This document shows positions 11,406 to 16,850 of a stretch of DNA of 21,896 nucleotides, piece by piece (the first letter of the stretch is position 1; each line of letters opens with the position of its first letter). The stretch spans positions 1 through 21,896 of IMG/VR virus record IMGVR_UViG_3300044858_004326; one strand, written 5' to 3'. The position numbers and the translations under genes are program-made. A model generated the notes under the pieces. The model did not search any database and was not told the origin of the DNA. It saw only the letters and a list, made by a program, of their open reading frames with translations. This stretch comes from a virus.

Positions 11406-11437
11406 TTGCGAATGTGAAATAAGTTTCGCTACCTTTG
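11406..11437 (+). promoter_or_regulatory. Promoter of the structured RNA
   Basis: TTG at 11406-11408, 21 bp, then TACCTTTG (11430-11437): spacing identical to the promoters at 6351 and on the minus strand at 703. Transcription should begin near 11441, exactly at the first hairpin of the RNA below. Confidence 0.7.
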
Positions 11438-11440
11438 CAG

Positions 11441-11576
11441 AGCCGAAAGGCCCGGATTGCGACCCCGGTTATTCTTAACGGAGAAATAAAGAAATTTAAA
11501 GACCTCATTCGGTCAGTACCAAGCAGCCGTATTTCCGTGGCTGGTCGCACTTGGGAACACCGGATGGGGTTTTTTA
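11441..11576 (+). ncRNA. Candidate structured RNA or leader upstream of GIY-YIG gene
   Basis: The roughly 135-nt transcript starts with a GCC-GAAA-GGC hairpin (11442-11451) carrying a GNRA tetraloop. GCGACC (11459-11464) can pair with GGTCGC (11543-11548), enclosing three hairpins: CCGgTTA/TAACGG (11465-11481), GACC/GGTC (11501-11514) and AGCC/GGCT (11525-11542). The end is GGGGTTTTTT. ACCCC (11462-11466) could instead pair with GGGGT (11566-11570) directly before the T-run, which is exclusive with the first pairing and would give a terminator-like fold. There is no ORF. I do not recognise a known riboswitch, ribozyme or intron family; it may be a free RNA or an attenuating leader of the nuclease gene that begins 4 nt after the T-rich stretch. 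Confidence 0.6.
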
Positions 11577-11580
11577 TTTT

Positions 11581-11928
11581 ATGAAAAATCACTCAAAGTA
11601 TGAGATTGAATGGGTTGGGTTCCCTAAAACCCACCGAAAAGTTCGTGGTGTTTATATGATTGGCCCCTCTATTTATCTTGGGGCGAGCTCCCACATTCGC
11701 TGTAGAGTGTTGCAGCATATTCATAATTCATGCAGAAGGCAGCATATAAACTCAAGTGTGCAAGAATATATTTTGATTCAAATTGAAAAAACCCTCCCCG
11801 TATTAGTTACCTTACTTAGTACAGACCCTTTTATGGAATTTGAGATGAGGAAAAGTATTGGCTTGCCTATAAATCCTCGTGAAAGGTACTACCATGAAAA
11901 TTTTTCTCGATTTAAAACTCTTTCCTAA
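11581..11928 (+). CDS. Free-standing GIY-YIG endonuclease, 115 aa
   Basis: The start at 11581 follows the T-run of the structured RNA. The N-terminal half has the GIY-YIG core: GVY (23-25), then IYLG (31-34), the conserved Arg in SSHIRCRVLQH (R42) and H46. A catalytic-type Glu occurs in FMEFEMRKSIGLP (E86 or E88). It therefore is a single-domain nuclease without an obvious DNA-recognition domain, as in many phage mobile homing-type endonucleases that spread into neighbouring loci. It interrupts the path from the unknown/metallopeptidase genes to the replication genes and ends 5 bp before the next start. DNA nicking or cleavage is the family activity; the target is unknown. Confidence 0.8.
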   Translation: MKNHSKYEIEWVGFPKTHRKVRGVYMIGPSIYLGASSHIRCRVLQHIHNSCRRQHINSSVQEYILIQIEKTLPVLVTLLSTDPFMEFEMRKSIGLPINPRERYYHENFSRFKTLS

Positions 11929-11933
11929 TAATT

Positions 11934-12650
11934 ATGGCACTGAAAATAATCCAAAGGTTTTTTGGGGCAGCTCCAAACGAACTTTTAAACAACCCTCAAA
12001 TTTCCCTTAAAGCAAAGGGGCTGTATTCTTATTTAAACAGCAAGCCAGAGAACTGGGACTTTAGTGTTGAAAGCATAGCAAACCAAGTGAAAGAAGGGAT
12101 AGACTCAGTGCGAGCCGCTGTGCATGAACTTGAAAAGTTTGGGTATTTAATAAGAGAAAAGCACCAAAACGAAAAAGGATTTTGGGAGGTCGATTACCTT
12201 CTTTTTGTAAGTCCTATGGAGTCGGAATCCTACCTCGGAAAATCCAACGAAGGAGAACACCCCAAACAATATAAGAAAGAAGATACAAAGAAAGAATATA
12301 CAAAGAAAGAAGAAATCCCCCCTTTATCCCCCCAAGGGGAAACAGAAGGGGTGGATTTCAGAGGTTTGAAAGACGCTGTTCAATTATGGTTGAAGTATAA
12401 AGCAGAAAAGAAGCAGAAGTACAAATCCAATTCTTCTGTACAAGCCATGATAAACAAACTTCATACTCTCTCAAACGGAAGCGCAGAACTTGCTATTGAA
12501 ATCATAGAAGAAGCTATGTCTAACAATTATCAAGGATTCTTCGCCCTAAAAAACAAAAATAGGGACGGACACCATAATGTTCCGCCGGCGGCCCCGTCCC
12601 GCAAACTTCACGAATCATTTAATTTTAAAATTACAAACAATGAAATTTGA
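11934..12650 (+). CDS. Winged-helix replication protein, putative helicase loader, 238 aa
   Basis: Residues 1-95 form a helix-turn-helix of the type seen in phage replication initiators: LSLKAKGLY-like QISLKAKGLYSYLNSKPENW, then SVESIANQVKEGIDSVRAAV and KFGYLIRE. A lysine/glutamate linker (residues about 108-125, KKEDTKKEYTKKEE) leads to a C-terminal helical domain ending EIIEEAMSNNYQGFFALKN, matching the C-terminal YxGF(F/W) motif of DnaD/DnaT-type primosomal proteins. With DnaB directly downstream and overlapping by 11 bp, a role in loading the helicase is likely. The last coding part contains a strong stem-loop (12562-12600). Confidence 0.8.
   Translation: MALKIIQRFFGAAPNELLNNPQISLKAKGLYSYLNSKPENWDFSVESIANQVKEGIDSVRAAVHELEKFGYLIREKHQNEKGFWEVDYLLFVSPMESESYLGKSNEGEHPKQYKKEDTKKEYTKKEEIPPLSPQGETEGVDFRGLKDAVQLWLKYKAEKKQKYKSNSSVQAMINKLHTLSNGSAELAIEIIEEAMSNNYQGFFALKNKNRDGHHNVPPAAPSRKLHESFNFKITNNEI
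12562..12600 (+). repeat. GC-rich stem-loop inside the 3' end of the loader gene
   Basis: GGGACGG (12562-12568) pairs with CCGTCCC (12594-12600), and the 25-nt loop contains the perfect palindrome CCGCCGGCGG (12582-12591). It encodes only DGHHNVPPAAPSR, a likely disordered linker, so the DNA or RNA structure is not forced by protein constraints. It lies 40 nt before the dnaB start. Confidence 0.6.
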
Positions 12651-14004
12651 AAATGAAGACTTGGAAAAGCAGGTGCTTTCCGCAATGATGCTTTCTGACG
12701 AGGAAAGACTAACAGCCTTCTCTGCCCTTCCCACCTTGGAAATTTTCCAAATAGCCAAAAACAGAATTATTGCCGAAGGCATACAAGCCTTGCAGGAGGC
12801 CGGAGAATCTGTTAGTTTGGAAACCGTAGCCGACACCTTGAAGAAATCAGGACTGATGAAGGAGGCGGGCGGTGTAGCCCATCTCGCTAATGTTTTCTCA
12901 AGCCTTAAAAAGCCGGGCTATGTAGAAGTTCACTGCCGCATTCTGATTGAGCACTACCTTCGGACTAAAGCCCACCTCATAGCCACAGACCTTCTTGCTA
13001 AAACAAATAGCGACACGGGAGACATCTTCGACATCCTAAACAAAATCCAAGTGAGCACTGATGCGCTCCTTGCCCAAACAATAAGCAAATCTGACGATAA
13101 CTTTCATGAGCAACTTGAAGAATCCGCAGCAATGTGGATGAATAAGGCTTCTGGGGAGATAGCAGGATATAGAACGGGCGTGGAAAGCCTTGATAGGCTA
13201 TGTGGCGGCCTTACGAATTCAGAACTCACCATTGTGGGAGCAAGGCCTGGACAGGGCAAGACGGCACTTGTCGTGAGCTTGATGCGTAATCTTGCCAAGC
13301 AAGGGATAGGGTGTGGCCTATTCAGTTTGGAAATGTCCAAGCACGAAGTGGTGCAAAGGCTCGCAAGTCAGGAGTCGGGAATATTTGCCTATAAAATGAA
13401 GCAGGGAGAAATGTCTAATTACGACAAATCAAACCTAATGGATGCCGTTCATAGGATGAAAAGCTGGAACATAAAAATCAGCGATGAGGGGTATTTAAAC
13501 ATGAATAAGATACGGGCTAAGGCTACAATGTGGAAAAACAAGTTTAACATCAAAGTGATTTTCGTGGACTACATTGGCCTCATCAACAGCAATAACCCAA
13601 AGGAAACAAACAGGGTGAATGTAGTGGGCGAAATCAGTAGGGGCTTGAAACTGCTTGCAAGAGAACTTGACGTTCCTGTTGTTGCCCTAAGTCAGCTTTC
13701 CCGAAAGGTGGAAGAGCGAAATGACAAGATGCCGATAATGTCTGACCTTCGGGAGTCGGGGTCTGTCGAGCAAGATGCTGACGTGATATGGATGATGTTT
13801 CGTCCTGAAACGTATGATGAGAATGGGACATTCAAGATGGGCACGGTGGAAATCCCCAACAAGGGACTTTGCATCATTGACCAAGTGAAGATGCGTTCGG
13901 GCTCTACAGGAATCGTTCCTTTGCAATTCGATGGCCCCTTAATGCGAATCAAGGAATATACGCAGCAAGAAGACAAGCATTCGCATGATGGCCATCCATT
14001 CTAA
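12640..14004 (+). CDS. dnaB: Replicative DNA helicase DnaB, 454 aa
   Basis: The start at 12640 (MKFENEDLEKQVLSAMML) is preferred over an in-frame ATG at 12577 because DnaB proteins begin with this motif and the leader AATTACAAACA precedes it. Residues 1-105 are the DnaB N-terminal helical domain. From about 175 comes the RecA-like motor: GYRTGVESLDRLCGGL, Walker A GARPGQGKT (200-208), Walker B IFVDY (D310), the LSQLSRKVEER motif and SDLRESGSVEQDADV. Length and order are normal for the family. It unwinds DNA at the phage fork as a hexamer. The gene overlaps both the loader gene and the following gene, so the module is translated as a unit. Confidence 0.96.
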   Translation: MKFENEDLEKQVLSAMMLSDEERLTAFSALPTLEIFQIAKNRIIAEGIQALQEAGESVSLETVADTLKKSGLMKEAGGVAHLANVFSSLKKPGYVEVHCRILIEHYLRTKAHLIATDLLAKTNSDTGDIFDILNKIQVSTDALLAQTISKSDDNFHEQLEESAAMWMNKASGEIAGYRTGVESLDRLCGGLTNSELTIVGARPGQGKTALVVSLMRNLAKQGIGCGLFSLEMSKHEVVQRLASQESGIFAYKMKQGEMSNYDKSNLMDAVHRMKSWNIKISDEGYLNMNKIRAKATMWKNKFNIKVIFVDYIGLINSNNPKETNRVNVVGEISRGLKLLARELDVPVVALSQLSRKVEERNDKMPIMSDLRESGSVEQDADVIWMMFRPETYDENGTFKMGTVEIPNKGLCIIDQVKMRSGSTGIVPLQFDGPLMRIKEYTQQEDKHSHDGHPF

Positions 14005-16761: not shown

Positions 16762-16832
16762 AGTCAGATAGCTTAATGGCTAAAGCCCCAAGATGACTTG
16801 GAAGATTGTAGGTTCAATTCCTTCTCTGACTA
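16762..16832 (+). tRNA. tRNA-like gene with short anticodon loop
   Basis: The acceptor AGTCAGA/TCTGACT is a perfect 7 bp, the D-arm is GCTT/AAGC with GG in an 8-nt loop, and the T-arm is GTAGG-TTCAATT-CCTTC with one mismatch, giving 71 nt in all. The anticodon stem CCAA/TTGG encloses only 6 nt (GATGAC), so the canonical 7-nt loop cannot be drawn and the anticodon is uncertain (GAC if T16794 is position 33). No CCA is encoded. It may be a decayed tRNA, or one with an unusual loop. Confidence 0.6.
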
Positions 16833-16850
16833 CAAAATAGGTGATTAATT

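Follow-up and report, generated by a model that had tools for sequence, protein, structure and literature searches.

RNA control through leader open reading frames (ORFs) and pseudoknots is classical in plasmid replication. In the repY/repZ system of ColIb-P9 (IncI-alpha) and IncB plasmids, a pseudoknot activates the translation of repZ and is controlled by an antisense RNA; it was reportedly Asano and Mizobuchi who, in 1998, described the RNA pseudoknot of the ColIb-P9 repZ leader as a switch. In the repC attenuator of pT181, a terminator hairpin is located just before the start codon of the initiator, and control involves a countertranscript together with an antiterminator as the alternative fold. 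Other structured RNAs have been reported, e.g., the SAM-II leader of Sinorhizobium metA, in which a pseudoknot over the first AUG is followed by an sRNA-releasing terminator and a second AUG, and for which AUG1 proved not to serve as the start (PMC9373788). The put element of HK022 is a structured RNA of phage early transcripts that acts in cis on transcription, suppressing termination by binding to RNA polymerase (PMC9378689), and type III toxin-antitoxin systems (ToxIN, AbiF) are arranged in the order promoter, structured RNA, terminator, and gene (PMC12373285).

The RNA analyzed here is encoded in a virus record of IMG/VR with 21,896 bases (the window, i.e., the whole stretch of DNA), for which no close relatives were found among INPHARED phages. 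It would resemble the repY/repZ leader in principle, i.e., in the combination of a pseudoknot with a leader ORF before a replication initiator, but not in sequence or topology; this ORF is a feature of most relatives of the long form (type A) and not of the window, and the RNA differs further in its terminator stem, its two pseudoknots of another topology, and its location in phage genomes. No antisense promoter of the type TAnnTTTG was noticed by eye in the element sequences. As in pT181, a terminator-like hairpin lies just before a start codon, but neither a countertranscript nor an alternative antiterminator fold was found; with respect to mutually exclusive terminator and antiterminator helices, the only alternative helix proposed lacks covariation. 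The order of pseudoknot, terminator, and second AUG is shared with the SAM-II leader, whose fold is unrelated and which serves a metabolic gene with a known ligand. The put element, with which resemblance was compared via Rfam alone, has no terminator at its end. The order of promoter, RNA, terminator, and gene is also that of type III toxin-antitoxin systems, but the element is single, without tandem RNA repeats and without a constant partner protein, and the genes that follow it serve replication or are small, variable orphans; membership in this class was ruled out on the basis of the single element and the unrelated downstream genes. No description of the RNA was found in the open-licence literature, and we rate it as a new RNA family, absent from Rfam 15, within the known class of cis-acting leaders.

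The element of the window and its relatives

All coordinates refer to the plus strand of the window. The promoter predicted from the sequence (11406..11437) consists of a -33-like TTG (11406-11408), a spacer of 21 nt, and the -7 box TACCTTTG (11430-11437). By sequence comparison it fits the Bacteroidota promoter consensus TTTG/TAnnTTTG (PMC6847099), in agreement with the initial annotation, which had assigned the RNA a promoter of its own. The whole structured RNA extends over positions 11440..11575 (covariance model R1; alignments A2, A4, and A6), and R1 matches the window at 11440-11574 with 116.6 bits, the window sequence being part of its seed. The GNRA hairpin proposed for the 5' end and the terminator-like 3' end GGGGTTTTTT are both present, and an ATG follows downstream at 11581. 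A scan with Rfam 15 at the gathering threshold left the element unmatched, a tRNA elsewhere being the sole match in the window, and when the window element and five relatives were scanned permissively, all matches lay far below threshold. A tRNA gene at 16762-16833 of the window obtained 48.5 bits with Rfam and a two-base anticodon 'tg' with ARAGORN. Folded alone, the window sequence was modestly better than its shuffles (z of -2.26, 4/200), and z values as low as -3.9 were obtained for relatives. Since the window fold is only mildly unusual and Rfam provided no match, relatives were needed to decide whether the RNA is genuine. On this comparative evidence, which we consider to settle the question, the structured RNA is real.

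Pattern and covariance searches located the RNA in about 100 other IMG/VR contigs, which look like Bacteroidota phages. A search based on the replication initiator retrieved contigs in which a region of 72% identity directly precedes the initiator and the nuclease gene of the window is absent, as well as others that are alike only in the promoter and the first hairpin. The pattern of promoter plus first hairpin occurred in 47 viral stretches, and with two exceptions these were judged genuine. With the flipped stem GGC-GAAA-GCC, 42 matches were obtained, 28 of them true and located on 24 new contigs; the remaining 14 were dropped because the structure was absent. Two further patterns that were blind to the promoter and the first hairpin added about 30 contigs, and matches without the structure (L200, L205, L208, L210, L225, L229-L232, and others) were discarded. 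In the promoter-free matches, TAnnTTTG or a close variant is still present 2-7 nt upstream of the first hairpin, and the link between promoter and RNA is therefore no search artefact. In a phage record of 69,098 bp (G020, contig L029), the element was observed at both ends (3-129 and 68974-69098); this genome is probably circular or terminally redundant and was opened inside the RNA.

Searches outside IMG/VR were negative. Neither blastn with five family sequences against INPHARED phages nor blastn with one family sequence against plasmids detected a homologue, and in view of the INPHARED result, no cultured phage is known as a carrier. The 34 matches of the variant pattern of GCC-GAAA-GGC in 84,980 bacterial and archaeal genomes were all judged to be chance on inspection, and model R1 with strict filters had no match in 395 Bacteroidota genomes.

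Fold and covariation

The RNA has a length of roughly 105-135 nt and occurs in two conserved forms, which have in common the capping hairpin P1, the hairpin P2, an internal loop of AGUA and GAA, the P3 stem with its U-run, and the pseudoknot PK1, in which the P2 loop pairs with the apical portion of the long 3' stem. The window harbors the long form (type A), as judged from P1, P2, PK1, P3-P5, PK2, and the U-run, with both pseudoknots retained. Its elements are arranged in the order P1, P2 with PK1 in the loop, a linker with PK2, P3, P4, and P5, after which one continuous strand pairs successively in PK2, P5, PK1, and P4, followed by P3 and the U-run. The short form (type B) is devoid of P5 and PK2 and has a P4 of only 3 bp (GAG/CUC, GGG/CCC, AGG/CCU, or CGG/CCG).

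The 5' hairpin P1 (GCC-GAAA-GGC, 11442..11451) shows stem swaps in relatives (GCC/GGC, GGC/GCC, GUC/GAC) and loop variants (GAAA, AAAA, GUAA, and once UUCG, in L228). Compensatory changes were also found in P2 (CCGG-ATTGCGACC-CCGG, 11452..11468), whose loop contains the 5' strand of PK1 (TGCGAC, 11458..11463); the 3' strand GTCGCA (11544..11549) covaries with it, and in 48 distinct type-A sequences 100% of the PK1 cells are paired, with 61 double-sided changes. The complementarity GCGACC/GGTCGC recognized in the initial annotation is thus genuine, but it does not form a closing helix around three hairpins, as GCGACC lies in the P2 loop and its helix with GGTCGCA is PK1. The second pseudoknot, PK2, was absent from the initial annotation and covaries as well; its 5' strand ACGGAGAAATA (11478..11488), with a GA bulge, pairs with the P5 loop TATTTCCGT (11530-11538), the 3' strand. 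In type A, the match between a sequence's own linker and P5 loop exceeds that with the loops of others (mean of 13.6 versus a best permutation of 10.6; 0/10000).

The 3' part consists of a single long stem (ACCTCATTCGG/CCGGATGGGGT) that encloses two inner stems. The 5' strand of P3 (11502..11512) pairs with positions 11560-11570, 99.2% of the cells are paired, and double changes occur at five pairs; together with the U-run, the 3' strand constitutes the terminator-like end (11560..11575), whose stem and U-run are kept in nearly all members. A consensus terminator scan did not detect this end, since the stem encloses a structured loop of 47 nt and the scan is blind to loops of more than 8 nt. 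A U-G pair inside P3 is found in 43 of the 48 type-A sequences, which indicates that the selected object is the RNA and not a DNA cruciform. The AGUA half of the internal loop (11515..11518) and its GAA counterpart (11555-11557) are conserved, apart from small variations, in both types; by sequence, the loop resembles the loop E/sarcin-ricin motif, a three-dimensional motif that we infer. P4 (CCAAG, 11519..11523, with CTTGG, 11550-11554) and P5 (CAGCC...GGCTG, 11524..11543) show double-sided changes at five of five pairs each.

The covariance search for compensatory changes that had been recommended for the candidate was clearly positive: every helix, including both pseudoknots, covaries, and overwhelmingly so. 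Standard pairs occupy 98.6% of the pair cells in the 48 distinct type-A sequences, and both sides have changed in 23 of 34 pairs, with 246 such cells versus 66 in shuffles (0/500); tests of this kind are inflated by sequence relatedness, yet the changes are numerous and are spread over diverged lineages. When the partners are shifted by one column, type-A pairing falls to 44-51%. In type B, 99.3% of the cells are paired, with double changes at 15 pairs. Structure-free MAFFT seed alignments gave the same covariation result, and nested folding of single members recovered the nested stems unaided. The proposal of an unrecognized structured RNA was hence well founded, but the switch pairing ACCCC/GGGGT suggested with it has to be abandoned, as it lacks covariation, is equalled in 142 of 500 shuffles, and has one pair broken in 26 of 48 sequences.

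Replication operon and leader ORF

The first gene downstream of the RNA in the window (11581..11928) encodes a protein of 115 amino acids (aa) and is followed by an HTH_36 replication initiator (11934-12650) and a DnaB-like helicase (12577-14004), both identified via Pfam/PHROGs. The first product was initially annotated as a GIY-YIG nuclease, and the resemblance holds at the level of the motif (GVYMI...IYLGAS...R...H...E...N), but searches of Pfam, PHROGs, and PDB sequences found no match, and an AlphaFold model of the single sequence was uninformative (pLDDT of 47). Other genes occupy this position in relatives, and the first gene varies by phage between orphans of 57-74 aa, a 171-aa protein, the GIY-YIG-like protein, and the initiator Rep itself. 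The small, variable orphan proteins between RNA and initiator were observed in L010, L014, L018, L022, L023, L031, L043, L054, and L154, and this slot looks like an accessory-gene hot spot. The first ORF past the RNA of L012 (171 aa) has an HNH-nuclease-like look (C-x2-C ... HVHH; motif only), which makes this contig the second with a nuclease-like gene in this slot. The content of the operon is constant, i.e., a Rep initiator plus DnaB or a primase-helicase. Two of the RNA-bearing phages have different terminase families. The RNA is not tied to the nuclease, a link that the initial annotation had considered; the same RNA precedes many other first genes, in L006/L007 it directly precedes Rep without a nuclease gene, and its constant partner, as far as gene content indicates, is the replication operon.

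In 42 of 47 sequences, P3/U-run and the next ATG are 8-13 nt apart, with non-homologous first genes downstream; in five short-form cases the distance is 19-35 nt. Four phages (L022, L023, L028, and L040) harbor a short form, one small gene, and a long form in tandem, about 340-590 nt apart. In a promoter subgroup (L004, L006, L008, L018, L023, L040, and others), AATTGTGAAATAA was observed between the -33 and -7 regions; this motif is located just upstream of the -7 box, these promoters precede different replication genes, and it is possibly an operator or an extended promoter.

Most long forms contain a leader ORF. An AUG within a few nucleotides of the PK2 strand is found in 45 of 47 distinct type-A sequences; the frame it opens comprises about 31 codons and crosses the terminator as far as the next start, and stops are present in 0/45 sequences in the leader frame versus 45/45 and 42/45 in the other two frames. 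In the window, the corresponding frame (11486..11584) is open and its stop TGA overlaps the ATG at 11581, but AUA replaces the AUG; the leader AUG is likewise absent from L012 (ACG) and the short forms, and its absence from the window and L012 qualifies the leader ORF as a frequent addition rather than a core feature. Several diverged members retain the end frame via compensating length changes. The evidence is suggestive but not conclusive, since the lineages of L022, L026, and L028 use another frame at the 3' end, the leader peptide is not conserved throughout, and column shuffling in the main group gives about 76% open frames by chance. Initiation in Bacteroidota prefers A at -3, -6, -12, and -13 and little structure (PMC6847099). 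The leader AUG is in an A-rich context (-6 A of 0.71) and the downstream AUG in a U-rich one (-3 U of 0.89), which suggests that the former is favorable and that the downstream start's own context is poor.

Possible roles of the RNA

We incline, with slightly more confidence than doubt, to regard the RNA as an attenuator, i.e., a structured leader that acts in cis on phage replication operons. There is no space for a second promoter between the RNA and the first gene, and the operon therefore needs read-through from here or from upstream; as the terminator-like stem separates the promoter from the first codon, control of read-through is the simplest role. The attenuator is favored because of the covariation, the abutment to the ATG, the constant operon, and the tandem forms that each precede a gene, and the earlier suggestion of a cis-regulator would thus probably apply to the replication operon and not to the nuclease specifically. 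A conserved antiterminator pairing was not found. In the fully folded RNA, P3 and the U-run would act as an intrinsic terminator and stop transcription just before the operon. Relief of attenuation by translation of the leader ORF, in the long form only, is a more tentative proposal: a ribosome initiating at the leader AUG while the P5 loop has yet to be transcribed would cross P3-P5 and block the formation of the terminator, and leader translation would hand ribosomes over to the next start codon, which is probably weak alone. If no ribosome is loaded, PK2 would close over the stretch immediately preceding the AUG and PK1 would then lock the fold, resulting in a stable terminated RNA. Since the window and the short form have no leader AUG, another kind of relief has to be assumed there, e.g., leaky termination, a protein, or antitermination.

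A trans-acting phage small RNA would likewise account for a discrete RNA that has a capped 5' end and stops at a terminator. In this case, the product would be the terminated RNA itself, with a host protein, RNA polymerase, a ribosome, or a defence component as its binding partner, and expression of the replication genes would depend on read-through. The stable hairpin at either end, the compact fold kept while downstream genes change, and the single RNA per replication module (two in few phages) are in line with this role, which we nevertheless consider rather unlikely, as the constant abutment to the start codon and the linkage to replication operons would be unneeded, a conserved single-stranded seed was not seen, and each tandem copy precedes a gene. 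An antitermination element in cis, comparable to put of HK022, or a landing site of a phage antiterminator, in which case the folded nascent RNA would modify the polymerase to pass this terminator and later ones, is improbable: a structured 5' RNA at the transcript start of the replication operon recalls the position of put in early transcripts (PMC9378689), but the strands of the pseudoknots sit in the terminator stem, so that folding should aid termination, and a phage antiterminator was not identified. We give little credence to a 5' leader for mRNA stability or translation, with the U-run as a landing site for ribosome/S1 instead of a terminator; the stable P1 cap at the 5' end and the start codon 8-13 nt past the U-rich tract would suit it, but the G-rich stem directly before the U-run is terminator-like and U at -3 is unfavorable in Bacteroidota (PMC6847099). 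A ligand-binding riboswitch controlling replication is very unlikely, for despite the pseudoknotted fold, the conserved internal loop, and a terminator like that of an expression platform, few unpaired bases besides the A-rich linker and the AGUA/GAA loop are invariant, a conserved alternative pairing is missing, and the P1 loop is replaceable by UUCG (L228). The assignment of the RNA to a mobile GIY-YIG nuclease unit, which the initial annotation had considered and which the adjoining position in the window suggests, can practically be discounted, as the RNA occurs in about 100 other contigs, of which those examined have other first genes and lack this nuclease, and the sole contig found to share the gene encodes a 100% identical protein in a region of 99.6% identity.

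Returning to the attenuator, we propose, still more speculatively than the leader-ORF mechanism itself, a cotranscriptional choice between a stable, double-pseudoknotted terminated RNA and a translated replication mRNA, set by the timely loading of a ribosome on the leader ORF and possibly accompanied by a second role in trans. If this holds true, the translational state of the host would gate phage DNA replication. The family, whose carriers include unrelated tailed phages, would lie at the control point of genome replication. A phage counterpart of the plasmid leaders in apparent Bacteroidota phages would offer a testable regulatory switch in a poorly studied host group and link the control of plasmid and phage replication.
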